Virus record (IMG/VR): IMGVR_UViG_3300050821_000928 | Coordinates: 1 to 48,647 of that record | DNA from: a virus | Direction: 5' to 3' (one strand) | Length of the DNA stretch: 48,647 nt | Part shown: one piece after another, positions 3,710 through 31,972 of the stretch | How positions within the stretch are numbered: the stretch's first letter is position 1 | Layout of the letters: each line of letters opens with the position of its first letter | Notes under the pieces: generated by a model | The model's input: the letters and a program-made list of their open reading frames with translations, nothing else | Databases searched by the model: none | Told to the model about the DNA's origin: nothing | Made by a program: the position numbers and the translations under genes

Positions 3710-4323
3710 TGGCATATCCTCCGACATTCGACCATCCGTGGGATATTACCGCTCCTGCGGATACGCAGTTGGCGAATCTTTTGGGTCAGGATATTCGTAA
3801 CCTAAAAGATGACGTTATGCAAAGGTTCACGTCATTAGCCGGGACTATTGCTAATAGACCAGCCCCCGAGACGGTTAATGCTACTTGGGGAGGTTCAGGT
3901 TATGGACTTCTCTATTTCTCGACTGATGAGAATAAAGTTTATCAATGGAATGGAGCGGCTTGGATTGATGTAAGTGGAAAGATAGGACTTTCTAGAATTC
4001 CTACAGTAGGTGGGATTGTTTTACTTCCTACTGGGGCTATTACTATTCCTGTTTGGAAAGCTCCGTATGCTTGTACAGCGACTTTTGTTCATGGTTGTTC
4101 TGGTGCTAGTGATGGTTCTGGAATAACAGTTAATGCTGGGAAGCTTTTTATTGGTGATTTTTTAGCGGCTAATCTATCTGTGCCATCTGATGGTGATTTT
4201 CACGATGCTACCGTTACTCAGAACTCCTCTTTTGCTATTGGGGAGAAGGTTTATATTAAATTGTCAGGTTTTAGTGGTGCTCCCAGTCAAGTAACTATTC
4301 AGGTAGATTTTACTCGACCATAA
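3709..4323 (+). CDS. Putative tail or fibre protein
   Basis: A 204-residue protein. The N-terminal half carries a pattern common in phage fibre-associated proteins (DIRNLKDDV, then YFSTDENKVYQWNGAAW). The C-terminal half is a glycine- and serine-rich beta domain that could be a receptor-binding or trimerisation fold. Coupled to both neighbours by overlapping stop and start codons. Confidence 0.65.
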   Translation: MAYPPTFDHPWDITAPADTQLANLLGQDIRNLKDDVMQRFTSLAGTIANRPAPETVNATWGGSGYGLLYFSTDENKVYQWNGAAWIDVSGKIGLSRIPTVGGIVLLPTGAITIPVWKAPYACTATFVHGCSGASDGSGITVNAGKLFIGDFLAANLSVPSDGDFHDATVTQNSSFAIGEKVYIKLSGFSGAPSQVTIQVDFTRP

Positions 4324-4877
4324 TGAGTCAACAAGGACCAAATTTTCCGACTGTAGGTGTAGACGCTGGAGGAGGAACTGGAGGAGATACTTGGAGTACT
4401 CCGTCGGCTATCGAGGTAGATGATGGAAGTTTTTCTGCTTATTCAATTACCGCTGGAAGCAGTCTAACAACTAATATACTTCGGGGGACTGGGTTTGGCT
4501 TTTCAATTCCTACTTTTTCTACTATAAATGGAATTTTGCTTGAAATTAAAAGAGCGAGTCAGTTTAGTTTTCCTCCTCAGATTACGGATAATCTCGTCCT
4601 CCTGCTAAAAGCGGGTGTTGAGGTTGGGAATAATGAAGCTAATGCCACTCCGTGGCCAGTGACGACTTTAACCTATATTTCGTATGGTGGTTCTAGTAAC
4701 CTTTGGGGAACAAGTTGGACTCCAGCAGATATTAACAATGCAAATTTTGGAGCTGATTTGCAAGGAATCTGTGATAACTCAGCTGGACAAACTGGTCGTG
4801 TAGATGCATATAGAATAACAGTTTATTATACTTTACCAGGTACAAGTTTTAGTGGTGTTATAGTAACGGACTCTTAA
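4323..4877 (+). CDS. Putative virion beta-sandwich protein
   Basis: A 184-residue protein with a Gly-rich N-terminus and alternating hydrophobic beta strands (GILLEIKRAS, LVLLLKAGVEVG, AYRITVYYTLP). This resembles the small jelly-roll or lectin-like domains found on phage tails. No catalytic residues are evident. Inferred to be a surface or tail component from composition and position. Confidence 0.6.
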   Translation: MSQQGPNFPTVGVDAGGGTGGDTWSTPSAIEVDDGSFSAYSITAGSSLTTNILRGTGFGFSIPTFSTINGILLEIKRASQFSFPPQITDNLVLLLKAGVEVGNNEANATPWPVTTLTYISYGGSSNLWGTSWTPADINNANFGADLQGICDNSAGQTGRVDAYRITVYYTLPGTSFSGVIVTDS

Positions 4878-17467: not shown

Positions 17468-18684
17468 GGTATTGTTCCTCCTGGCGGAACGGCTCCTTGT
17501 TTAACGGATTTCGTACTGGCGTACATCGTCTTACGACCTTGTTGGTAATCGAATATAATCTTTGCTTCTTTGAAGGTAGCAAGAATCCTATCTAAGTCAT
17601 CTGAGGTTACGTCCCTCCAATGAGCTTTTAAGATTTCCTCACGCGAAGCGAAACCTTTGGTTTCTATAAAAGCTAGAACTTTATTACTAGCTGCGACTAA
17701 TTCCGATTCCCCTACCCCTCGAAAGACCCTCGGGATATTACTCGCAACCGATTCGACCGCGTCGTATCCTTTCTGGAAATCCTCCTTTGAGATGATAAGG
17801 TCATTCCCTCTAGATAAACTAAAACACATAGCCAGTTTAGAAACTTGAGCCCATTTAGAAGTCTTATACGAAGTAGTTGCCTCGTCATCGTAAAGGTCAG
17901 GTTCAGATTGTTTATATACATACTCGAAGAGAGGGACGGCTCCTTTGTCGAATTTGAATTCTCCTACTTGAAGGGACATATCTCTTAGGTCTTCGATGAG
18001 GTTAGATTTAATTGGAGAGTGATTTGGTATAACTGGCCAGGGGATGAACTGTTCTCTATCCTGAGCCACAACGAAGTTAACACGTCGCGTAAAGCCGCCT
18101 CCAATCGCGGTTGGAGGGATTGCTGAAATAAGCCATTCTTGAGTTGAGCCTCCGAGAAGTGATACGCAAGGAGAATCGATTTTATATTCTCCTTTGTGTC
18201 TGGTTCCATATATGAAGCTCCCTTCGTTAGAGTCCCATAGGTCGGTTAGAATGGGGATGGTAAATTGAGACGCCGTAACAAAAACTGAAAGTTCCCTGGA
18301 TATAATGAAACAAGTATGGTCCATGTTGACGTTGACGGTTCCTGGCTTGGCCCCAGGGCCGATACCGGACCAGCCGTTGGAGAGCTTTTCAAGTATGTAC
18401 TCAATGGTAATTCTATCTGATAATATGTTTGTGACATCTGCCTCCTGTAATATACGAAGCGCCGGATTTATAGCGGAGCCCTTTCCAAGTCCGGGGCGCC
18501 CGACTAGAACTGTGAACAAGTTAGGATAGAGATGAAAGTGTCCCCGTCCTATAAATACCTTACGCTTCATCGTCGCGGCAATAACCGTCAGACCAGACCA
18601 GAGGTGATAGTCTAACGGTGATTCTGATGCCGGCGCAATGTATCCCAGATATGTTGTAATCCAGTCTCGGAGGTGTCGAGGCAT
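17464..18684 (-). CDS. Replicative helicase or primase-helicase, DUF3987-like
   Basis: A 406-residue protein. The N-terminus (LRDWITTYLGY, SPLDYHLWSGL) followed by VGRPGLGKGSAINPA (Walker A, K68) is the DUF3987 pattern found in phage and plasmid primase-helicase C-terminal domains. FIISRE near residue 129 is a plausible Walker B, and GGSTQEWL and GGGFTRRVNFV (arginine finger region) follow. No primase catalytic domain is present, so it is probably the helicase part. The start overlaps the polymerase gene by 73 bases. Confidence 0.75.
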   Translation of the reverse strand: MPRHLRDWITTYLGYIAPASESPLDYHLWSGLTVIAATMKRKVFIGRGHFHLYPNLFTVLVGRPGLGKGSAINPALRILQEADVTNILSDRITIEYILEKLSNGWSGIGPGAKPGTVNVNMDHTCFIISRELSVFVTASQFTIPILTDLWDSNEGSFIYGTRHKGEYKIDSPCVSLLGGSTQEWLISAIPPTAIGGGFTRRVNFVVAQDREQFIPWPVIPNHSPIKSNLIEDLRDMSLQVGEFKFDKGAVPLFEYVYKQSEPDLYDDEATTSYKTSKWAQVSKLAMCFSLSRGNDLIISKEDFQKGYDAVESVASNIPRVFRGVGESELVAASNKVLAFIETKGFASREEILKAHWRDVTSDDLDRILATFKEAKIIFDYQQGRKTMYASTKSVKQGAVPPGGTIP

Positions 18685-20054
18685 TTTGGATTAATCTCAA
18701 TTTCGTTCCGAAGGTCATAGCCGATACCGAATTCTAAGGGAATTTTAATCTTTAACCCGTTGGGAAATTCTATTTCTCTATCGAAGGACTCTTCAAGTAA
18801 CTTGATGGCTTTGGTAATCTCCGAGATGGAATCTTCCACTTCAAGAACAACTGCGTCGTGGCCGTCCATGAGGACCCAACCAGGTCGAACCGTTTCACAG
18901 TGCAATATAGCCAATCCTGTGTTATCTCCGACAGTGGATTGGGGGATTTGGGCGTATGCTTCTTTAAAGATTTTAGAATTATCTGCGCCAGGTCGAAGGC
19001 CAAAGAAGTAACGGCTTCGTCCAAATGGGGTGACCAAGGTTCTTGAGTCTCGAAGCTGCTGTTCGACCCAGTATTGAAATGTAGCTCGTACCTGAGGCTC
19101 AAGTTCGTGGAACCTCCTTAACATAAGCTCACAATAATCTTTGGTAATACTAAAGCCTTCTTTAGCTAGAGTGACGGCCATTGTAGGGGCTTTCATTCCA
19201 TAATTAGCGGCATGACGTGTCTTCTTGCCCATATACCGAAAGATAGTACCGCAGGTTTTAGTGCATTGTTCTGGAGGCTTATTAAATAATTGACTGGCTA
19301 GGCGTTTATGACGGTCAATTCCAGCTTTTAGCTCATCTAGTCCGAATGAACCGCCTCCATTATCTGCTATAATCGAAGATACTATCCAATCTTCCGCTTG
19401 GCTTTGGTCGCAGTGGACAAATATCTTTCCTGGCCTCGACACGATGCATTCATAGAATCGTTTACCGAGTTCAGTTTTGTTAGGGAGGTTTTGAGCGTTC
19501 GAGCCAATTTTATGTCCGGATTCGGCAGTGAAAGGTGTCTCTGTTGAAGAACGACGTCCAGTTTTTGTGCCTCCAACATGATAGATTGAGTATAATACTG
19601 AATCAACAAGAGTTGCCTCCGCATACGTACCTTTAATCTTATTGAGTTCTCGTACCGAGAGTATTTCTTTGAGGACTTGATTTCCCGTCTGCGCAAAGGC
19701 TTCATTTAGGGCTTCCTCTCCAGTAGATTCTTCTCCAGAGTCTCTATCTTTTTTAAGCTTAATATGTAAGCTTCCAGTGATAACTTTTCTGAGTTGCTGA
19801 ACGCTAGAAAGATTAAGGGTTCCTTGAGGAGTTTTGACACCCTTTGGTTGTCTAGGTACCACTTTGAGTTTGACTTCTTTTTCGATTTTTTGACAACTTT
19901 CTTCCAGCTTGGCATCAAGATACTCCTTAAACTTCGTTAACTTCGTTTGGTCAACTAGAACCCCTCTTTGTTCAATGTTATAGAATGCGTGAGCAAGAGG
20001 GAGTTCATATTCATAATAAAACTCACGGAGTGACTTGAATAACGGGAATGACAT
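18612..20054 (-). CDS. DNA polymerase I-family polymerase core, without exonuclease
   Basis: A 480-residue protein covering thumb, palm and fingers only. GVLVD at 31-35, TGRRSS and GSNAQNLP before the palm, motif A HCDQSQAED (D216), motif B with K277, His281 and Tyr285 (K-x3-H-x3-YG), motif C DGHDAVVLE (H399, D400). The residue after the motif C Asp is Ala where most family members have Glu, and motif B has His where E. coli Pol I has Phe762. The 3'-5' exonuclease is encoded separately two genes upstream, fused to a UDG-like domain, so the holoenzyme is probably a two-subunit complex. Confidence 0.9.
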   Translation of the reverse strand: MSFPLFKSLREFYYEYELPLAHAFYNIEQRGVLVDQTKLTKFKEYLDAKLEESCQKIEKEVKLKVVPRQPKGVKTPQGTLNLSSVQQLRKVITGSLHIKLKKDRDSGEESTGEEALNEAFAQTGNQVLKEILSVRELNKIKGTYAEATLVDSVLYSIYHVGGTKTGRRSSTETPFTAESGHKIGSNAQNLPNKTELGKRFYECIVSRPGKIFVHCDQSQAEDWIVSSIIADNGGGSFGLDELKAGIDRHKRLASQLFNKPPEQCTKTCGTIFRYMGKKTRHAANYGMKAPTMAVTLAKEGFSITKDYCELMLRRFHELEPQVRATFQYWVEQQLRDSRTLVTPFGRSRYFFGLRPGADNSKIFKEAYAQIPQSTVGDNTGLAILHCETVRPGWVLMDGHDAVVLEVEDSISEITKAIKLLEESFDREIEFPNGLKIKIPLEFGIGYDLRNEIEINPKCLDTSETGLQHIWDTLRRHQNHR

Positions 20055-20060
20055 TTATTC

Positions 20061-20396
20061 CTATTTCTCAATCATTCTGTGAGGAATCTCTAGTCTGAAC
20101 TCTACGACCGTAAACATACTATCCAGCGTAGCTCCTGGATAAACTTCGTTTAGACTTTTTAACATATTCTCTACGTTATCCCATCCTTCATCCCAGAATA
20201 TGGAGAAGGGAATCCTTCGGAGCGGGGCTACGTATTGTAGATTTACAATGGCATGATAACCTTCTACTTCGATACTTTTGGCGAAGCGTCGGGCGCCGAG
20301 CCGTAGGCTTATACGTTTGGTTCCTGCAAGGATACCTTGTTTGAAACGGCCATGGAATTCTAGTCTAGTTTCTAGGGGACAACTATTTCCGTTCAT
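20061..20396 (-). CDS. ASCH/PUA-like domain protein
   Basis: A 111-residue protein: LEFHGRFKQGILAGTKRISL near 12-31, a basic strand-loop, FWDEGWDNVEN near 70 and a closing strand MFTVVEFRLE. This follows the ASCH layout (substrate-groove G.K..T.R segment, EGW helix, final strand). ASCH domains bind RNA or nucleosides. It is inserted between the UDG-exonuclease and the polymerase core, overlapping the former by 14 bases, so it probably acts with them. Confidence 0.6.
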   Translation of the reverse strand: MNGNSCPLETRLEFHGRFKQGILAGTKRISLRLGARRFAKSIEVEGYHAIVNLQYVAPLRRIPFSIFWDEGWDNVENMLKSLNEVYPGATLDSMFTVVEFRLEIPHRMIEK

Positions 20397-21615
20397 TGAA
20401 TTCCTTTTCTTGGGCTAGGTAGATTTCATAAGTACAAGCGGCGTCTAAGGCGTTGTAGCGCATCAGTTTTTCTAGTCCTGATTTCGGGGACCAGCCTTTC
20501 CCTTCTTCTTTCCAGAACGGTTGGCGAGTGTACTGAAGACCAAGAAACTCAAGTCTATGGCGCAGACTAGGCCAAAGAACATGATGACGTAAAAGAGTAT
20601 CATCCACGTTCGAAATATTAACGTTGAAACCAAGACACCGTAACCAATGGGCATCGAAGGATGTGAAGTTCTGGCCTATAATCCTTTTAGTTGAAAGAAT
20701 TTTATTCATCAATCTCCACAATACGCATAGTGAAGTCAGTGGGTAATTCCATAAAGACATTGATACAGCCCTGGTCGGACTTGTAGCAAAAGAGATAGTA
20801 TAAGGGACTTTCCGGCTTAGAAGTTCTATGTCTATGGAAATAGGATTTGGAGAATTTACACAACTCACTAGGAAACTCACAGCATCTTCGTAGGAGGGAT
20901 TTACTATCAAGTCTCTCATAGGGAGCGTATTGATAGTCCCATTCTCGGTGAAATGAGAGTATTCTTCTAATGCTTTCTGGAGAATCAAAACGCATATCTC
21001 ACGCTCCGCATAATTTCGTAGAACAAAGGCAGGATGCGCCATCGGAATTACGTAGTGCGGCCATTGGAGAAGAGGACTTATTAAGAGACTTCCTCTCCAT
21101 GACATGAATCCTTCTTTGTCTTCTTGATTCTTTCCGCGTTTGAATCTAGGTTTAGTTTCAGGACAAAGAAGGTTAGTGACAGTCTTTCCACAAGCGAGAA
21201 TAAAGGCCGGTTTATATAAGATAAGCTCTTCGATAAATTGCTTAATAAAATAATCGATAGGTATACCAAGTTCAGATATACGTTTAATATCATTATCTGG
21301 AGGCCGAGTTTTATATGCGTTAGAGAAATATATCTTATAATAAGGAAGTCCTGACTCCCTAATCATTTCATCTAGTAATTTACCAGAATAACCTATGAAA
21401 GGCTGTCCATATAAGTCTTCGTCTTTACCTGGAGCCTCCCCATAAATGGCTATTCCTCCGGAGGTGTTCCCCTTGACTCCGACGTAACGAAGTCCCTTCG
21501 ATAAGAGTGCCTGACGTAGGATGGAATCGGCGGTTTGTCCCGATTGAGTTGTTGGATTTCTAGGGTTGACATTCGAGGTTTCCATATCATTAGGTAGGAG
21601 CATGTATTTAGGCAT
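20383..21615 (-). CDS. UDG-like domain fused to DnaQ-type 3'-5' exonuclease
   Basis: A 410-residue protein. Residues 55-205: GEAPGKDEDLYGQPF (motif 1 of family 4 uracil-DNA glycosylases), FSNAYKTRPP and MAHPAFVLR (motif 2). The four iron-sulphur cysteines of family 4 are not evident. Residues 245-400: proofreading exonuclease with ISIDIELLS (Exo I D-x-E, 252-254), IGQNFTSFDAHWL (Exo II) and YNALDAA (Exo III, Y-x3-D). SPO1-type phages are known to carry a UDG-like region at the front of a single-chain polymerase; here that chain is cut after the exonuclease. It overlaps the zinc-ribbon gene upstream, and its exact start is uncertain. Confidence 0.85.
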   Translation of the reverse strand: MPKYMLLPNDMETSNVNPRNPTTQSGQTADSILRQALLSKGLRYVGVKGNTSGGIAIYGEAPGKDEDLYGQPFIGYSGKLLDEMIRESGLPYYKIYFSNAYKTRPPDNDIKRISELGIPIDYFIKQFIEELILYKPAFILACGKTVTNLLCPETKPRFKRGKNQEDKEGFMSWRGSLLISPLLQWPHYVIPMAHPAFVLRNYAEREICVLILQKALEEYSHFTENGTINTLPMRDLIVNPSYEDAVSFLVSCVNSPNPISIDIELLSRKVPYTISFATSPTRAVSMSLWNYPLTSLCVLWRLMNKILSTKRIIGQNFTSFDAHWLRCLGFNVNISNVDDTLLRHHVLWPSLRHRLEFLGLQYTRQPFWKEEGKGWSPKSGLEKLMRYNALDAACTYEIYLAQEKEFNERK

Positions 21616-21894: not shown

Positions 21895-22091
21895 AGAACC
21901 CTCTCGTAGATACGACGAAGCCATTCCATTTGGGCATATGAAATATGCGTAGCATCTCCGAATCTGGTAAACTTGTCATCTAGTTCATTTATGAAAGTAC
22001 CTTCACCTTCGGTGAGGGACTCGAATACTTCGGATAGTTCGTCTACTAAACGACGGGCTTCTTGAACTTCGGCGGATTTTATATGTTCCAT
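21891..22091 (-). CDS. Small helical hypothetical protein
   Basis: A 66-residue, acidic, helical protein (VQEARRLVDELSEVFESL, YAQMEWLRRIYERVL). It is coupled to the MazG-like gene through TAATG and to the next gene through ATGA. Function unknown. Confidence 0.6.
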   Translation of the reverse strand: MEHIKSAEVQEARRLVDELSEVFESLTEGEGTFINELDDKFTRFGDATHISYAQMEWLRRIYERVL

Positions 22092-22483
22092 TAGAGGTCG
22101 GCTCCTTGATAAATTAGTAATGTTCTTATATCAGGTGGTTCATAGTTAGGGCCTTTTATAACTTTTCCATCTTCTCGGTAGAGTGGCTTCCCATCCAGTC
22201 CAAGTTTAGATAGGTTAGATTTATGTATCTCGTTTACTACGGTTTCAAGGTCAATTCCGTATTCAATAGCCGCCCCAAATACAACGTATGCAAGGTCTCC
22301 TAAGGCGTCGGCTACCTCAACAAGGTCATTAGATATAGACGCGGAGCGTAACTCTTCTAGTTCCTCTTCGATTAGATTTTCACGAAGTAGCTGGCGTTCT
22401 CTAGAAGGGAAGCTTGGAACATGAGCAGTATTTACCTCGTATTTGTCATGAAATTCTAAAACTTGTTCTTGTATTTTATTCAC
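22091..22483 (-). CDS. MazG-like nucleotide pyrophosphohydrolase
   Basis: A 130-residue protein with GTG start. LIEEELEEL (39-45) and ADALGDLAYVV (58-68) form the E-x-x-E and D-x-x-x-D metal-binding helices of all-alpha NTP pyrophosphohydrolases (MazG / PRA-PH superfamily). Such enzymes cut NTPs or dNTPs to monophosphates; phage versions are thought to clear non-canonical nucleotides or tune ppGpp-linked signalling. Located next to an ABC-GNAT fusion and upstream of the UDG-exonuclease, consistent with nucleotide-pool control. Confidence 0.85.
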   Translation of the reverse strand: MNKIQEQVLEFHDKYEVNTAHVPSFPSRERQLLRENLIEEELEELRSASISNDLVEVADALGDLAYVVFGAAIEYGIDLETVVNEIHKSNLSKLGLDGKPLYREDGKVIKGPNYEPPDIRTLLIYQGADL

Positions 22484-23588
22484 CTTTTATCAACCTTTCC
22501 GCATCGGAACGATTCATCGAAGGTCCGATATACATAAATACGGCACACCTACGCCCTCCAAAGCCTCCAACAGTTGAAGTTTCACCTCTTTTGGGACTGA
22601 ACTCACCTGAATTCTTAACTTGGATCCAATCCTTACTTCTCTGATATGAACGTATCCAGGCAGGATGGTTCGGATAAGAATGAAGTCGGTATCCCACAGC
22701 TTTATGGGCGCTAGCCACTGTTCCGGCGAGTACCATAGCGAGTCCCAACCCCTGATAATCAGGAAGCGTGACCATGCGTGTGAATCCACGAATGTCGTTA
22801 ACTCTTGGGTGAGGTCTATGCAGAACTCCGCACATAGAAGCAATTCTATCTCCGACGTAAAGTCCATAGCACCGAGCCGCCTTATTGAGGTCTTGACTCA
22901 TATAGTGAAATTCACGGAAAAGGTTCCAAGTTTCGTATTTGACTCTTGATATTGAGACATTAATTGGTGGCCGGCTGCGCCGAAGGGACCTCCAGGTAAG
23001 TCGGATAGGATTACCTGGTTCGAGGATCCAATCTGGGTCGAGCCATTCAATTATGTCGTAATGACAAGAGGCTGCTACAAATTTCCTACCTGTTCCTGAC
23101 TCTCGAATATACTTTTGAACAGCATAGCTGGTTGTTTGAGCTACTTGTCTGTCAACAACCGAAGTAAACTCGTCAATGGAAACCAAATTATTAACGCTAA
23201 GAAGACGCCTAGCAATATCGCAGCGAAATCGCTCACCGTTAGAGAGGACATTATATGGGCGTAGCCAAGCAGGAATCGTATTAAAACCCACAGACTGACA
23301 AGCGCGAGCAATATCTTCCATGGATATGTCCGGAAAGTCATCAATAACACTTTTGGATACCCAGTCAAGTTGTTCAGGTTCACCGAATAGTCCTTTCAAG
23401 GTTAGGGTCTTACCACAGCCTGAGGGCCCCACTATCAATCCGACTGACCAAGGTTGTGAATCAAGATTTATATCACCTTCCAAATTTACGGAAAGTTTAT
23501 CTTCGATAGGTACCTCAAACATGGAACCTAGCATTTCCACCCTATGGGTGCGTTCTATAAATGAGTCTTTTATAATTGATATTTTCAT
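22476..23588 (-). CDS. ABC-type ATPase fused to GNAT acyltransferase (COG2401-like)
   Basis: A 370-residue protein from ATG 23588, which overlaps the ParB-like stop (ATGA). N-terminal ABC ATPase: GPSGCGKT (54-61), signature LSNGE (115-119), Walker B SIDE (137-140), H-loop His166. C-terminal GNAT domain (about 190-350): FHYMSQDLNKAARC, LYVGDRIASMCGVL and the acyl-CoA loop LPDYQGLGLAMVL. This architecture is known as a phage and bacterial family of unproven role. The GNAT part recalls the Mom-like group that modifies adenine in phage Mu DNA; that link is inference. No transmembrane segments, so not a transporter. Confidence 0.85.
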   Translation of the reverse strand: MKISIIKDSFIERTHRVEMLGSMFEVPIEDKLSVNLEGDINLDSQPWSVGLIVGPSGCGKTLTLKGLFGEPEQLDWVSKSVIDDFPDISMEDIARACQSVGFNTIPAWLRPYNVLSNGERFRCDIARRLLSVNNLVSIDEFTSVVDRQVAQTTSYAVQKYIRESGTGRKFVAASCHYDIIEWLDPDWILEPGNPIRLTWRSLRRSRPPINVSISRVKYETWNLFREFHYMSQDLNKAARCYGLYVGDRIASMCGVLHRPHPRVNDIRGFTRMVTLPDYQGLGLAMVLAGTVASAHKAVGYRLHSYPNHPAWIRSYQRSKDWIQVKNSGEFSPKRGETSTVGGFGGRRCAVFMYIGPSMNRSDAERLIKGE

Positions 23589-24310
23589 GCCACCACCGGT
23601 ATACACTTTAGTCCCGCACTTCGTAATTGTGCTAGTAAGGTTTTCTGTTGAGCCTCGTCATCGCAGGTTATGACTATCTTATATACGTATACTGTAGCTA
23701 CTCGCGGTGCGGCCTTCCCTGAAGCCGTAGCGATAGCAAGCTCCAGCCGCCTTTTGGCTGCTTCTCTGGAAGGTTCCTTAGCCAAGATTGGTAACTTGTT
23801 TATTAACGCTGCCATGTCAAGGTCATTAGAAGTATTTTCTGGTGACTCTCCTATCATAGCCGCTAGGCTACGGACACCAAACCCTCTAGGCTGTCCAGCT
23901 TGCGGGGCGCCTGGAATTGGGGGGCCGTGAAGAGACTGCATTAACTCTAAGAGCTTCGCTTTACCTTTAACTTGTTCTACCCAGGAGAGTTCCTTCCTAC
24001 GGATGTTCTCTTCCATTTCAATAGCTACGCTTAGGAGTTTAATCTTGGGGTCGTCCGACCGAAGGTCTTCGCGCCATATGTAATGCTTCGCATGTTCAAG
24101 GTCGGTCAAGCCCATTTGTTTCATAGCGGTGAGACGACGTTCCCCAGCCACCAATTCAATATGAGTTAAATCGTTTTCTTGAGTTTGTTTCAAGACTATC
24201 GGCTCAATTAATCCGTGTTCCTTTATGGAATTGACTAGACCTTGAATGTCTCCGAGGTCTTTGCGGATACGATTGGAGATTATGATTTCGTCTATTTTGA
24301 TTGATTCCAT
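23585..24310 (-). CDS. ParB-like nuclease/CTPase-domain protein
   Basis: A 241-residue protein with an N-terminal ParB fold: IDEIIISNRIRKDLGDI, LVNSIKEHGLIEPIVL, and VAGERRLTAMKQMG (GERR 56-59, the CTP/phosphate-binding box). A helical middle (LAAMIGESPENTSNDLDMA) may be an HTH, and the C-terminus is a short beta domain. Chromosomal ParB proteins bind parS and slide on DNA using CTP; phage homologues have varied roles. No ParA partner is visible. The four-base overlap with the ABC-GNAT gene suggests they work together. Confidence 0.85.
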   Translation of the reverse strand: MESIKIDEIIISNRIRKDLGDIQGLVNSIKEHGLIEPIVLKQTQENDLTHIELVAGERRLTAMKQMGLTDLEHAKHYIWREDLRSDDPKIKLLSVAIEMEENIRRKELSWVEQVKGKAKLLELMQSLHGPPIPGAPQAGQPRGFGVRSLAAMIGESPENTSNDLDMAALINKLPILAKEPSREAAKRRLELAIATASGKAAPRVATVYVYKIVITCDDEAQQKTLLAQLRSAGLKCIPVVA

Positions 24311-24313
24311 TAC

Positions 24314-24748
24314 TCACCTTTGTGGAATTACAATAACACTACCAGGTTTTCCCATTTTAATAGCTTGTTTAACTGTCCAACATCCGCCAGATTTTACGTG
24401 CTTATCTGTTTTACAGTGATAACAAAGCTTAAATTTCATCCCCGTATACGAATCTGGTAGCTTGTCTACCGTAATACAGTATATAATATCACTATGTGAT
24501 GCTATTTGCAGATTACGTTTTTTATACCCTTCCCAAGAAAGAGTTTCTGGTATAAACTCTGTCACTTTCAAGTGTAATTTTCTACCTAACTCTGCTGCCC
24601 ATATGTCAATACCACCTAAATGACAGCCGCCACTAACCACCTCAGTAACATTAGGCATCATAATAAGCCTATTAATCATTTCTTGAGCATCTATTTTTGT
24701 AAGTTCATTGAATTTAATAGCCTCGCTACCTACTATTCCAATCTTCAT
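24314..24748 (-). CDS. SLOG/DUF2493-like Rossmann-fold protein
   Basis: A 144-residue protein. The start MKIGIVGSE, then VVSGGCHLGGIDIWAAELG and TEFIPETLSWEGYKKRN, IASHSDIIYCIT follow the nucleotide-binding SLOG pattern (GGa.GaD..a, later hydrophobic strand with D). A Cys pair (CYHC) and KSGGCWTVKQAIKMG close the fold. These domains bind or cleave nucleotide-derived ligands. The start is preceded by GGAG and a hairpin at 24764-24796. Confidence 0.7.
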   Translation of the reverse strand: MKIGIVGSEAIKFNELTKIDAQEMINRLIMMPNVTEVVSGGCHLGGIDIWAAELGRKLHLKVTEFIPETLSWEGYKKRNLQIASHSDIIYCITVDKLPDSYTGMKFKLCYHCKTDKHVKSGGCWTVKQAIKMGKPGSVIVIPQR

Positions 24749-27619: not shown

Positions 27620-28260
27620 TTATTCTCCTTATTCTGAGCCAACTTCTGTATTAGTAAGATTAATTTCTCCTTGGATAGACCTAATTTACTCAAAGCTCCC
27701 ATAGCAGACTTTAAGTCATTTCCTTCTCCTACGGATATAGAACGTTTCGCGTGTAGTGGAGAGGCCTCGCCATTGAGCTTGGCCCTTTCGTTGGCTTCGT
27801 TAGTCATTCGGAGAAGTTGAAGCCTAGAAAACTTCGTTGTACGGAGTTCGAGTGAATTTTCTACTTGATTCTTTATTATTCGACGATAATCGAGGATTAC
27901 CTCCGCTTCTCGAACGGCGGCTTGGAAGATTTTCAACTCTTCCCGGAGTTCATCATCGGTCATTTCGGATATAATAACTTTACGGCGCATCCAGGCTTCG
28001 CCGGTGAGAACTATTTGACGGCCTTTATGACGGACTTCGTCTGGGCCAATCAAAGGTTCGTCTTTTATATCATCATGAATCTTCATTGGATTATAACACG
28101 AAGTGCAACTAAGATAATCCTCCGAACGGTGCCTTCGGCAAATTGGTAAGCGACAAGTTTGACAGTGAAGTTCTGGAGAATGAAGTGGTTCTTTACAAAT
28201 ATAACATAAAAGCTCGACCGAGCCAATTATAGGACCGTGGTCTTGTTCTTGGTCTTCCAT
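27616..28260 (-). CDS. Multi-zinc-finger plus helical protein
   Basis: A 214-residue protein. Residues 18-60 hold CYICKEPL, HCQTCRLPICRRH and LSCTSCYNP, a cross-brace-like array of Cys and His pairs (RING or B-box style spacing). The rest is helical and charged, with an AMGALSKLGLSKEKLILLIQ end. The array could bind nucleic acid or protein partners. Family not identified. Immediately downstream of the GC-rich cassette. Confidence 0.65.
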   Translation of the reverse strand: MEDQEQDHGPIIGSVELLCYICKEPLHSPELHCQTCRLPICRRHRSEDYLSCTSCYNPMKIHDDIKDEPLIGPDEVRHKGRQIVLTGEAWMRRKVIISEMTDDELREELKIFQAAVREAEVILDYRRIIKNQVENSLELRTTKFSRLQLLRMTNEANERAKLNGEASPLHAKRSISVGEGNDLKSAMGALSKLGLSKEKLILLIQKLAQNKENK

Positions 28261-28620
28261 TTATTGAGACTCCTTACGGACTTGCTCTAGAATGGCCGCG
28301 ACATTTTCCGGCGAAGAGAGCAAGGTGATGAAGTCAATGATTTCGAGAAGGCCGCATCTCTGACAGTTATCAGGGTCGCGGCCATCCTCAGCATCGGACT
28401 CGTAGCACTCAGCGCCACCGAAATGCTGCATCTCACTCTCAATTTCCAGTAGCGGTTTCTTGGCCCGCTCCACCACCACCTGCACCAGTCGTTGCTCGCT
28501 GGCCTTCATCATTTCGGCTTGTAGCGCCATTCCCTGAGCTATGCCAGCCGCATAAGCATCAGTCTCTAGTTGACTCGGCTCCAGCTTGGCGGAGTCGGCG
28601 GCGAGGTCGGGGTTAGTCAT
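28261..28620 (-). CDS. Hypothetical protein, GC-rich cassette gene 1
   Basis: 119 residues read from ATG 28620 (MTNPDLAADSAK), whose A overlaps the preceding TGA (ATGA). An upstream ATG at 28647 would give a longer form but lacks this coupling. Central ECYESDAEDGRDPDNCQRCG is acidic and has three Cys. Function unknown. Confidence 0.65.
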   Translation of the reverse strand: MTNPDLAADSAKLEPSQLETDAYAAGIAQGMALQAEMMKASEQRLVQVVVERAKKPLLEIESEMQHFGGAECYESDAEDGRDPDNCQRCGLLEIIDFITLLSSPENVAAILEQVRKESQ

Positions 28621-28793
28621 GGTTTCACCCAATCGGGACAGCCACAAGGCTTCTGAGGCGGTCCTGGCCTTTCACAGTCATAGCCGATGCAGCGAAATTT
28701 GCAGTTAGGGTCGGTCGCTGGTACGTTGTCAGCATCATCGTGCCGATGCCAACTCTGAGGATGGCCGCAGCGTTTGCAAAGTGGCTCACTCAT
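28617..28793 (-). CDS. 58-residue Cys-rich protein
   Basis: A frame starting MSEPLCKRCGHPQSWHRHDD, with further Cys in CKFRC, YDCERPG and PCGCPDW: seven cysteines and several histidines, so at least one zinc site. ATGA overlaps at both ends show it is a member of the cassette. This composition is common in small actinophage-type proteins of unknown role. Confidence 0.7.
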   Translation of the reverse strand: MSEPLCKRCGHPQSWHRHDDADNVPATDPNCKFRCIGYDCERPGPPQKPCGCPDWVKP

Positions 28794-29230
28794 TCTGCCT
28801 TCCCCTTTCTGGCCGCATCCATGATGCGATAGCTCAATCCTACGGCGTTCCGTTGTCCTTCGTGTCTCTCATTCGCGTGGGTCTGAGGCTGGAATTGAAA
28901 ATCAATCGGCAGCCCCGTACGCTTCGATAGGTGCTCTGAAATAGAAACCGTCAGCAGTAGCCAACGGCTATCGTGCTCCCAATGCAGTCCAGCTAGAGGG
29001 AACAACTCCGCGAACTTGGCATCTTCCATGATGAAACGAATGTCTACGTCACGCCAGTCGGGGCGCGCCAGTGCAGACCCCACCACGTAGCAGCCGTACC
29101 CATCGAAGGCCGCGCAAATATCTCGACAAGCCATTTCAAGTGCAAAGCAGGCTGGTGCTCCGATGTAACACGGCTTGCTCACGGCTTCCCCTTTCTGGCC
29201 CACGGGGTCGGGGTTAGTCAATGGGCTCAT
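28790..29230 (-). CDS. Minimal nucleotidyltransferase-like protein
   Basis: A 146-residue protein. CYVVGSALARP, RDVDIRFI (D61, D63) and later GLPIDFQFQPQ (D110) fit the polymerase-beta/MNT superfamily: G-S helix, D-x-D strand, third Asp strand. It would transfer a nucleotide to a small molecule, protein or RNA; the substrate is unknown. Two starts are plausible: ATG 29230 behind AGGAG and GTG 29182 behind AAAGGGGAAGCC. The local GC content is very high (41 of 60 bases at 29041-29100). Confidence 0.7.
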   Translation of the reverse strand: MSPLTNPDPVGQKGEAVSKPCYIGAPACFALEMACRDICAAFDGYGCYVVGSALARPDWRDVDIRFIMEDAKFAELFPLAGLHWEHDSRWLLLTVSISEHLSKRTGLPIDFQFQPQTHANERHEGQRNAVGLSYRIMDAARKGKAE

Positions 29231-29762
29231 AATGCTCCTGTGGGTCTGTTTGGCCTTCGGTGCTAACTGCCAGTGCAGCGGCGTAACGACAGTCGGGTTG
29301 GTGAATTACTTTATTATTTGCTCCGATTGATACCCTACAGCTACAGCATTTCCATCCAGCTTGTGTCTGATAACCTGAACCAAATGATAGCGGCTGTACA
29401 CCTGGACAGAATCCTAGTGCCCATCTCAAATCTCTCTTCAATTCTTCGATGCGTACCTTTAATGGGTTCGTGACTCCATCTAGCGCGTCCTGAATTACTT
29501 TGACCCCAACCTGTGTGGAAAGTTCTCCACCAGCCGTCCTCTGCATCGTGATGAACTGGAAAAATAACCTCTCTGCTGCTGTGTCTTGGCTCACGGCTTC
29601 CCCCTTTCTGTTTCCATCGCTGCGCGATAACAACCCACCTTGACACTTTGGACACGGTACATATTCGGCAAGGTCATCGGAGTGACCCGCACCAGCGGGC
29701 CTTGATAGGACTACTCCTGTTCCAGCGCAGGTTGGACATCCGACAATTAATTGCTTGCTCAT
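29214..29762 (-). CDS. CxxCxGxG zinc protein, possibly two fused genes
   Basis: A 182-residue protein. N-terminal CPTCAGTG and CPKCQGG form a DnaJ-type zinc ribbon, then helices, then a second Cys group (WKCCSCRV, CRYAA). At GTG 29594 an internal start behind AAGGGGGAAGCC shares a 21-22 base sequence with the boundary of the next gene. The reading frame may therefore be a fusion of a ribbon protein and a formerly separate protein. Confidence 0.65.
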   Translation of the reverse strand: MSKQLIVGCPTCAGTGVVLSRPAGAGHSDDLAEYVPCPKCQGGLLSRSDGNRKGEAVSQDTAAERLFFQFITMQRTAGGELSTQVGVKVIQDALDGVTNPLKVRIEELKRDLRWALGFCPGVQPLSFGSGYQTQAGWKCCSCRVSIGANNKVIHQPDCRYAAALAVSTEGQTDPQEHYEPID

Positions 29763-30154
29763 TTGCGCTCCTTGGCCTCACGGACTTGGGACTCCAACTC
29801 GGAGATATAAGCAGCATCCGATTCACACGATGGCGAGTAAGTATTTCCGCGTCCTTCAATCCCAGCAACAACGCGCCAAGAAACAATGGAACTCCATCTA
29901 CGAGCAAACCACTTTTCCGCTTCATCTAGCCGCGCCAGCTTTCGCGCTTCCTCCTTGGCGCGTTCGAGGTCGGCGGCGGTACACGGCGAGAATGTATGTC
30001 CGCACATCGTGCAGAGCCATTGCGAGGTCCAACTTCCATCGTCGTTGCGTCTCGGGTCATGCCTGACTGATAAATGGGCGCAGCATGGCCCTTGTATCTC
30101 AATCTCACCGTGGGCCAATCCTGGCGGATTCTTGCCATACTTTGATTCACTCAT
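29759..30154 (-). CDS. Cysteine-containing hypothetical protein
   Basis: 131 residues from ATG 30154 (MSESKYGK), which overlaps the end of the upstream gene. HGEIEIQGPCCAH and WLCTMCGHTF give a likely zinc site, and the C-terminal half is a helix ending ELESQVREAKERK. An ATG 45 bases earlier lies deeper in the upstream gene. Function unknown. Confidence 0.6.
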   Translation of the reverse strand: MSESKYGKNPPGLAHGEIEIQGPCCAHLSVRHDPRRNDDGSWTSQWLCTMCGHTFSPCTAADLERAKEEARKLARLDEAEKWFARRWSSIVSWRVVAGIEGRGNTYSPSCESDAAYISELESQVREAKERK

Positions 30155-30872
30155 CGAGAAACCTCCGAATGTCGGCGCAGAGCTTTTGCGCGGCCTCATT
30201 GTCTGCTGTGTTGCGACTGAGAAACGATTCGGTCAAAGATGCCGCAACGTAAAATCCTGACTGCCGCAGCAACTCCCGCGCCTTCTCCAGCTTCCCTTTG
30301 TAGGCTTCTGCTAAATTTTGGGCAGCTTCAAGTCTCAGCCAAGCATGATGCGCCGTGGTAACTCCATCTCCGAATAGTCGCTCCAGTTCTTCACATTGAG
30401 TATAGAAATTATCAAAGCCAATTTCAAACTCGTCCCGCTCATGTTCGACCCGCTGTATCTCCTTGCGCATTTCGGAAACTACACGCATCCGTTCCTTCTC
30501 GTCGGTTCTAAGTGGGTCTACACAGGCTGGATGCTCCACTTCATACTCGTCCGCTCCGAAATGTTCCTTCGCTTCGGCTTCTTCGGTGAACACGGCGTTG
30601 CAGTGAAAGCATCGCCAATGATGTTCCAGCTTCCCTTGCAACGCGCGAGCCTCGGAGAGTTCGCGGCTGAGTAAATCTGCCAGTGGGACAAAGGCGTGAA
30701 AATCGCCGTGTCCAGCCCATCGTTCTGCTCGCAGGCAGAATAAGCGGCGTTCTGGCTCGTAGTGAAAGCATGGCGGTCCTTGGTTCAAGACAACCTGCAT
30801 CCAGTCTGCATTTTTGGCGGCTTCGATAATGGCCCCGAACGTCTTTGGCTCACCCGCTGGTTGGTCAGTCAT
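30147..30872 (-). CDS. Hypothetical helical protein with C2H2-like finger
   Basis: A 241-residue protein: N-terminal mixed domain (GPPCFHYEPERRLFCLRAE), a finger-like HWRCFHCNAVFTEEAEAKEHF near 87-107 and long charged helices with a coiled-coil look afterwards. It opens the GC-rich cassette and overlaps the FtsK-like gene by four bases. No confident family. Confidence 0.6.
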   Translation of the reverse strand: MTDQPAGEPKTFGAIIEAAKNADWMQVVLNQGPPCFHYEPERRLFCLRAERWAGHGDFHAFVPLADLLSRELSEARALQGKLEHHWRCFHCNAVFTEEAEAKEHFGADEYEVEHPACVDPLRTDEKERMRVVSEMRKEIQRVEHERDEFEIGFDNFYTQCEELERLFGDGVTTAHHAWLRLEAAQNLAEAYKGKLEKARELLRQSGFYVAASLTESFLSRNTADNEAAQKLCADIRRFLDE

Positions 30873-31972
30873 TTATTAACCTCACTCATTTCAATAGCCA
30901 TTTTAATATCTTCTATTTTTGCGAGAGGGGCGTGGATTCGTCTTATTGCTGGATTATTCGGAGAAATATAGAGTGCATCTCCTTGACTGAGCAGTTGTTC
31001 CGCTCCACCTGTATTAAGTATTGTTCGTGAGTCTGTTTCAGAAGTTAATCTGAAAGAGAGACGTGCTGGGAAGTTGGCTTTAATATTACCTTCAACGACT
31101 TTGACAGACGGCCGCTGGGTCGCGGCAATAATATGTATCCCTGTTGCTCTAGCTTTTTCGGCAATTTTGCCGAGTGAGTATTCCGTACGTTTGCCATAGC
31201 TTCGCTTGTCCCCTTCTTCGTCTTTAGTTATGTCTTGAAGAGGGCTTGCAAGTTCATCTATTACCACTACGATATACGGCATCTGACGTTGAGGAAATCT
31301 TTCGTTATATTGACTGATATTCTGACAGGAACTACGTGATAGCGTTCCAAGTCTAGTGTCAATATCATTGACAATAATATCAAGATACTTTAGTATATCT
31401 ATTGTGGAATAAGCCACTGGGAATAGGAGATGTTTAGCGTTAGCGAAATGGTTGAATTCGACTTGTTTTGGGTCGCATAGAACGAAGCGGAGCTCCGTTG
31501 GTGACTTGACATAAATCAAGGAGGCTAGTATGGAATTCAACAAGGTTGATTTTCCACCGCCAGTAGAGCCAGCAATCAGGAGATGCGGTAAACCAATAAG
31601 GTCTTCGATAACGAAGTTTCCCATATGGTCTATTCCGAGGCACAAAGGGATTTTGAAAGAATCCTTTACTTTCCATAATTCTGTTACAGCATCCCTAAAT
31701 AATAGCGGATGCTTCTCCTTGTTGGGGACATAAATTCCTATCGAAGACTCGCCAGGGAGTCTCCGTACTTGAACGGCTTCGGCGCTTAGGCATATAGCCA
31801 AGTCTGGAGCCAGTCTTTCTACCGAACCTACGCGAGTAGCGTTCTTAGGGACGAATTTATATAATGTGACTATGGGACCTTCATGTACGTCTGGAAGGAA
31901 TTCTCCATCTATTCCCAGAGAGGTTAGTTTAAGTTGTAATTTCGCTAACGTAGCCAAATGATTTGGGTTCAT
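30869..31972 (-). CDS. FtsK/SpoIIIE-like DNA translocase ATPase
   Basis: A 367-residue protein holding only the motor domain. LPHLLIAGSTGGGKSTLLNS (Walker A 134-142), VLCDPKQVEF, VVVIDE (Walker B 225-230), and IAATQRPS match FtsK in order. There are no N-terminal membrane segments and no DNA-orienting gamma domain. Small soluble FtsK-type motors act in conjugation, plasmid transfer and some phages. TerL is present elsewhere, so this is a second DNA pump with another job. A palindromic site lies inside the gene. Confidence 0.9.
   Translation of the reverse strand: MNPNHLATLAKLQLKLTSLGIDGEFLPDVHEGPIVTLYKFVPKNATRVGSVERLAPDLAICLSAEAVQVRRLPGESSIGIYVPNKEKHPLLFRDAVTELWKVKDSFKIPLCLGIDHMGNFVIEDLIGLPHLLIAGSTGGGKSTLLNSILASLIYVKSPTELRFVLCDPKQVEFNHFANAKHLLFPVAYSTIDILKYLDIIVNDIDTRLGTLSRSSCQNISQYNERFPQRQMPYIVVVIDELASPLQDITKDEEGDKRSYGKRTEYSLGKIAEKARATGIHIIAATQRPSVKVVEGNIKANFPARLSFRLTSETDSRTILNTGGAEQLLSQGDALYISPNNPAIRRIHAPLAKIEDIKMAIEMSEVNK
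31357..31373. repeat. Dispersed palindrome, copy 4
   Basis: TGTCAA-TATCA-TTGACA followed by ATAATATC, within the FtsK-like coding sequence (translated as part of IIVNDIDTR). Confidence 0.75.

Follow-up and report, generated by a model that had tools for sequence, protein, structure and literature searches.

A ParB-fused or free microdomain paired with an ABC-GNAT protein: a predicted DNA-acylation module of tailed phages

The window analysed here is the whole of a 48,647-base tailed-phage record from IMG/VR (IMGVR_UViG_3300050821_000928, positions 1 to 48,647), in which no tRNA genes were found and consensus promoter matches were no more frequent than in shuffled sequence. Four consecutive minus-strand ORFs at 22091-24748 encode a SLOG-like, a ParB-like, an ABC-GNAT and a MazG-like protein (Table 1). 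A previous reading of these genes, made from the sequence only, had described them as one coupled operon, with an ATGA overlap between the ParB-like and ABC-GNAT genes and an overlap of the MazG-like gene with the GNAT end. Both overlaps were borne out, the second being 8 nt long (22476-22483), and the SLOG-like ORF is separated from the ParB-like gene by 3 nt. The ATGA overlap places the start of the ABC-GNAT protein at ATG 23588 rather than at an upstream GTG. The tight packing of the four ORFs is thus real; however, it is general in the one-strand array of about 12 kb (28647 to 17147) that holds them, where about 12 of the 18 junctions overlap and most either overlap or sit within a few bases. 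As overlaps are routine across this array, overlap alone is no evidence for a four-gene module.

Table 1. Features of the ParB/ABC-GNAT locus in the window
Feature	Coordinates	Strand	Evidence
SLOG-like ORF, weak assignment, accessory neighbour	24314..24748	-	phrog_289 0.0011 only
ParB/Noc-like protein with C-terminal adaptor microdomain (putative), 241 aa	23585..24310	-	ParB_N PF02195 3.7e-10
C-terminal microdomain of ParB, residues 208-241, ~34 aa	23588..23689	-	HMM 3.5e-14 in window
ATGA stop/start overlap, ParB to ABC-GNAT	23585..23588	-	sequence
ABC-ATPase + GNAT acyltransferase fusion, 370 aa, PHROG_11143	22476..23588	-	PHROG_11143 2.6e-89; ABC_tran 1e-6; Acetyltransf_1 0.002
ABC ATPase domain, residues 1-200	22989..23588	-	conserved motifs; ABC NBD folds in PDB
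GNAT domain, residues 206-332	22593..22973	-	Acetyltransf_1; acyl-CoA motif Q279-G-x-G282; H228-Y229 conserved
PRA-PH/MazG-type nucleotide pyrophosphohydrolase, DR2231-like, accessory neighbour	22091..22483	-	PF01503 1.1e-16

The GNAT half of the ABC-GNAT protein scores just under the Pfam cut-off for Acetyltransf_1 (18.7 against 20.7 bits). An alignment of 42 sequences was used to analyse conservation (annotated-record loci were excluded from this and from the ParB alignment), and in it the Walker A, LSxGE, Walker B DE, H-loop ('SCHYD'), QGxG and HY motifs were invariant or nearly so, the invariant residues of the ABC domain being G50..K60, L115-S116-x-G118-E119, D139-E140 and H176. As the ABC motifs, including the Walker B catalytic glutamate, and the acyl-CoA motif are kept, both halves are expected to be active. 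The AlphaFold (AF2) model was confident per residue (pLDDT 89.5) and not confident for the packing of the domains (pTM 0.58). A fold search of the whole protein against the PDB returned ABC domains only, among the matches listed, and is uninformative for the GNAT domain, for which the best viral structural match was itself a GNAT protein. A direct homologue is encoded by the Tenacibaculum phage pT24 (33% identity, 5e-51, 89% of the query) and is annotated as two ORFs in that record. Four close relatives (L019, L020, L021 and L023) carry a fast-diverging, Ser/Asp/Gly-rich in-frame insert of 109-145 residues in the same GNAT beta-hairpin, at about residue 251 of the window protein, which has no insert.

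The ParB_N match of the upstream gene product lies over the curated Pfam cut-off (40.1 against 26.3 bits), and NCBIfam Noc/ParB families also match it. The protein has the CTP-binding motifs GERR and ENxxR and a helical DNA-binding region, and its model fold resembles the CTPase ParB 6t1f (CTP-bound) and Noc 7nfu; from these motifs and the model it is predicted to be a ParB/Noc-type CTP-dependent clamp. No ParA partner was seen. A ParB-like gene stands upstream of ABC-GNAT in all 29 of the IMG/VR loci nearest to the window (group 1). The GERR/ENxxR motifs and the helical region are limited to the window's clade, the other ParB partners being of a GH-R type, and the N-terminal part of these partners is very variable, while nearly all of them share an end of about 34 residues.

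This end constitutes a microdomain with the consensus Y-[KR]-[VI]-[IL]-[VI]-x-C-x-[DS]-E-x-x-Q-...-G-[LY]-K-C-..., of which C216, E219, Q222, G233 and C236 (ParB numbering) are conserved across distant loci. It is found upstream of ABC-GNAT in two forms, either fused to ParB or as a free microprotein of 36–57 aa (phrog_28816 in Mu-like phages). An HMM was built from 24 seeds, chosen beside ABC-GNAT, and searched against every ORF of at least 25 aa. Counted over loci that are mutually related, and hence not as independent events, the microdomain was present in 29/29 viral group-1 loci, in 0/51 marine group-2 loci and in all of the best 80 of 430 bacterial-genome loci, one of them (L292) weakly; the same scan gave no match in Mom loci. 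Held-out free microproteins of 41 and 49 aa were recovered in two phages, and a microprotein spotted by eye in a Porphyromonas phage (L093) was also matched by phrog_28816. Over all loci there were 256 matches, 243 of which have their end no further than 300 nt from the start of ABC-GNAT, usually at or beside it and often as ATGA; among the remaining 13, the 12 listed all belong to ABC-GNAT loci, at 0.3-2.6 kb upstream. Such gaps separate the ParB-microdomain gene from ABC-GNAT in L014 and L030 (6330-8000), in L010 and in several bacterial loci, and immediate overlap is thus not obligatory.

In a tree of 93 ABC-GNAT proteins, the ParB-fused and free microdomains alternate inside the Mu-type clade, and well-supported branches require that the free state changed at least twice. 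This alternation, together with the variable ParB part, indicates that the ParB domain is exchangeable while the microdomain is kept. By this comparison of sequences, the constant partner of ABC-GNAT is the microdomain and not the ParB domain. The 51 group-2 loci (L031-L081), often inside replication modules, encode an ABC-GNAT protein without microdomain, ParB or Com, and the presumed adaptor is therefore not strictly required.

The Mu-like phages offered a second context, in which the gene order is Com, microprotein, ABC-GNAT and formyltransferase, and in which ABC-GNAT lies at the right end, after the tail/tail-fibre genes, where Mu has com and mom. These loci mostly lack ParB. The ORF preceding the microprotein encodes a zinc ribbon, and PF10122 ('Mu-like prophage protein Com') matched over its cut-off in 5/5 of the ORFs tested, with Mu Com as control. 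A Com HMM built from ten of these zinc-ribbon ORFs, all from ABC-GNAT loci, matched no more than 400 nt upstream of ABC-GNAT, and on its strand, in 69 of the 80 Mu-type loci, and had no match elsewhere in the ABC-GNAT loci, the window and its group-1 relatives included. It also recovered Com in Mu and in other Mu com-mom loci (32 loci without ABC-GNAT). Com activates the translation of mom (PMC6483171); its presence in front of ABC-GNAT thus puts ABC-GNAT in the place of Mu's DNA-modification gene, and a role like that of Mom is the natural interpretation. The formyltransferase (PF00551) directly follows ABC-GNAT in 52/58 and 36/65 Mu-type loci, and was absent from beside ABC-GNAT in the group-1, group-2 and bacterial-genome loci. 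Two further candidates were rejected: the free microprotein is not Com, being a separate family (phrog_28816) downstream of it, and a Mu-type Dam/GATC switch upstream of com was not enriched (0.88 observed against 1.49 expected per 300 nt).

The sequence-only reading had counted four families as working parts and had named their co-occurrence elsewhere as a check. Its assignment of a MazG-like nucleotide hydrolase stands, as the PRA-PH match is well over the cut-off (61.4 against 21.3 bits) and DR2231 is the closest solved structure (1e-13). The SLOG identity is weaker, the match to phrog_289 being accompanied by no Pfam match at E<=1; this ORF has one relative in IMG/VR and no match in phages. 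Co-occurrence was assessed in 80 IMG/VR ABC-GNAT loci and in the best 80 of the 430 bacterial-genome loci (mostly prophage), and the SLOG and MazG profiles of the window matched in none of either set. The PRA-PH gene was likewise absent from 20 whole relative records, with control genomes all positive. In one close relative (L023) ParB and ABC-GNAT are separated by a different gene of MazG type (PF12643), and another relative (L004) has a nucleoside-deoxyribosyltransferase-like gene downstream of ABC-GNAT, indicating that nucleotide-handling genes can lodge beside the pair and that none is fixed. The four-gene module was therefore rejected for want of co-occurrence, one of the two findings that the sequence-only reading had said would speak against it, and the SLOG-like and MazG-like genes look like local passengers outside the conserved module.

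The MazG-like gene could belong with a uracil-handling set at 18612-21615, DR2231 being of the dUTPase type. There the polymerase is split into a uracil-DNA-glycosylase and 3'-5' exonuclease fusion (20383-21615) and a separate PolA-type polymerase (18612-20054), and an ASCH-domain gene (20061-20396), kept in close relatives, lies between them. ASCH-domain genes were also seen near ABC-GNAT in L072 (5276-5491), L083 (9108-9476) and the L025 contig (10333-10551), and their products might read or erase acylated bases; a general ASCH linkage was rejected, as they are scattered (8/48 records, 0 Mu-like). In L018, ABC-GNAT is followed directly by a gene for a MaoC-like acyl-CoA dehydratase (4207-4704), which may serve to supply acyl groups or may belong to flanking host DNA. 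Elsewhere in the window, the stretch 28000-31000, with genes lacking PHROG matches, has a G+C content of about 52% against 43-45% around it, and is adjoined by an FtsK/SpoIIIE-like gene (30869-31972).

The neighbours of the bacterial ABC-GNAT copies that had a PHROG or Pfam match were for the most part phage genes, terminase and portal among them, indicating that these copies are mainly prophage genes. In several cultured phages ABC-GNAT lies shortly before terminase, a position in keeping with an enzyme that modifies DNA shortly before it is packaged. A defence role with a restriction partner was rejected on the terminase and portal neighbours, a single GmrSD_C match among 74 neighbours and the lack of a recurrent nuclease.

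Taken together, we favour, with a probability of roughly 0.6, the reading that the ParB-borne microdomain and ABC-GNAT form a phage DNA-base acyltransferase acting in the role of Mu Mom, which protects phage DNA from restriction. In this mechanism the ParB/Noc-type clamp would load on phage DNA in a CTP-dependent manner, its C-terminal microdomain would dock the ABC-GNAT protein, the ATP-driven ABC dimer would engage or distort the DNA, and the GNAT domain, with acyl-CoA as donor, would acylate a base amine, so that acyl groups added before packaging would block host restriction enzymes. In Mu-like phages the microdomain would act as a free microprotein and Com would control translation, while the formyltransferase may finish the modification. 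The sequence-only reading had left the choice between DNA modification and nucleotide signalling; modification is the part that survives, narrowed to ParB and ABC-GNAT, through the upstream Com, the terminase and portal neighbours and a prior prediction, whereas signalling and the four-gene scope found no support. Counting against acyltransfer to DNA are the confinement of Com to Mu-type loci, the group-2 proteins without an adaptor, the lack of a sequence link to Mom, the absence of the Dam-site switch of Mu and the restriction of typical ParB CTPase motifs to the window's clade. We tentatively extend the proposal, as a possibility well short of even odds, to a widespread phage DNA-acylation machine centred on the adaptor, which would work either alone under Com at the mom locus of Mu-like phages, with a two-step acyl-plus-formyl modification, or on a DNA-sliding ParB clamp that guides the enzyme. 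Guidance of a base-modifying enzyme by such a sliding clamp would be a previously unknown way of modifying DNA.

Proteins and RNA are further substrates of GNAT enzymes, which also counts against the main reading. The GNAT domain might acylate a host protein or RNA during host takeover, with the ABC and ParB parts serving only to regulate or localise it, and this is the strongest of the competing explanations, though an unlikely one. Acetylation of host RNA polymerase by phage GNATs is on record (Rac, as cited in PMC7824862), and the group-2 phages carry the gene in a replication module without adaptor, but a host target sits poorly with Com control at the mom position, the fusion to a ParB DNA clamp and the packaging-gene neighbours. 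The same ParB/Noc fold, and the fact that ABC ATPases organise DNA elsewhere, would suit a partition or DNA-organising module, in which a ParB clamp and an SMC-like ABC ATPase act on phage DNA and the GNAT is regulatory. We regard this as improbable, given an ABC part without a coiled coil, invariant GNAT motifs, the absence of a visible ParA and Mu-type loci that mostly do without ParB.

Slightly less improbable is that the microORF or microdomain is a translational-coupling leader only and not a protein adaptor, for which its usual end at or near the ABC-GNAT start, often as ATGA, could be taken as a sign. A leader, however, would not account for amino acids conserved across distant loci, for fusion to the ParB C-terminus, or for retention where the genes stand 0.3-2.6 kb apart. 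An operon of all four genes, serving nucleotide signalling or modification and with SLOG and MazG contributing to its function, is the least credible of all: the tight packing in the window and the nucleotide-handling neighbours in L023 and L004 speak for it, but such packing is general here, members of this MazG family are frequent in phages (630 records), and neither the PRA-PH gene in the 20 relatives' records nor the SLOG/MazG profiles at other loci could be matched.

Modification of DNA by an ABC-GNAT is in itself already predicted, as PMC7824862 describes a prediction by Iyer and Aravind that an ABC-ATPase-coupled GNAT, with phage pT24 as example, acyl-modifies DNA bases. The window protein has the same combination of ABC and GNAT and is homologous to that of pT24; ParB, the microdomain, Com and the formyltransferase are not mentioned in the passage of that article dealing with the prediction. 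A limited literature search, which did not take in the 2013 ABC-GNAT prediction, likewise found no description of the microdomain, its free form, or the links to Com and the formyltransferase. These links turn phrog_11143 and phrog_28816, both listed as 'unknown function', into a testable DNA-modification system, for which their tie to com-mom is an independent genetic link and cultured phages with ABC-GNAT are available in which to look for the modification, among them Leptospira biflexa phage LE4, the Gordonia phages Sisko and Jace, Arthrobacter phage EastWest and Nonlabens phage P12024S.

The 'Mom-like' features claimed earlier for the enzyme hold for role and locus (Com, and the right end of Mu-like genomes) and not for the sequence family, since membership of the Mom family was rejected: ABC-GNAT gave no PF25680 match at E<=1, while Mu Mom itself scored 2.4e-75, and a comparison of the Mom profile, which is shallow, with that of the GNAT domain gave an hhalign probability of 0.2%. 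The Mu-type relatives share with Mu com-mom an upstream Com, the right genome end and an enzyme of the GNAT superfamily, but add an ABC ATPase and a microprotein between Com and the enzyme and have no GATC cluster; the window, in contrast to Mu, has no Com. Compared with DR2231-type MazG/dUTPases, the MazG-like protein of the window is a probable relative by its match, but its gene is a neighbour and not a conserved partner. The window ParB has in common with chromosomal ParB/Noc CTPases the ParB_N domain, the GERR/ENxxR motifs, the helical DNA-binding region and the 6t1f/7nfu fold, but has no ParA in sight, ends in the 34-aa microdomain and is partnered with ABC-GNAT, and its guidance of a base-modifying enzyme would, if true, put the ParB CTP switch to a new use.
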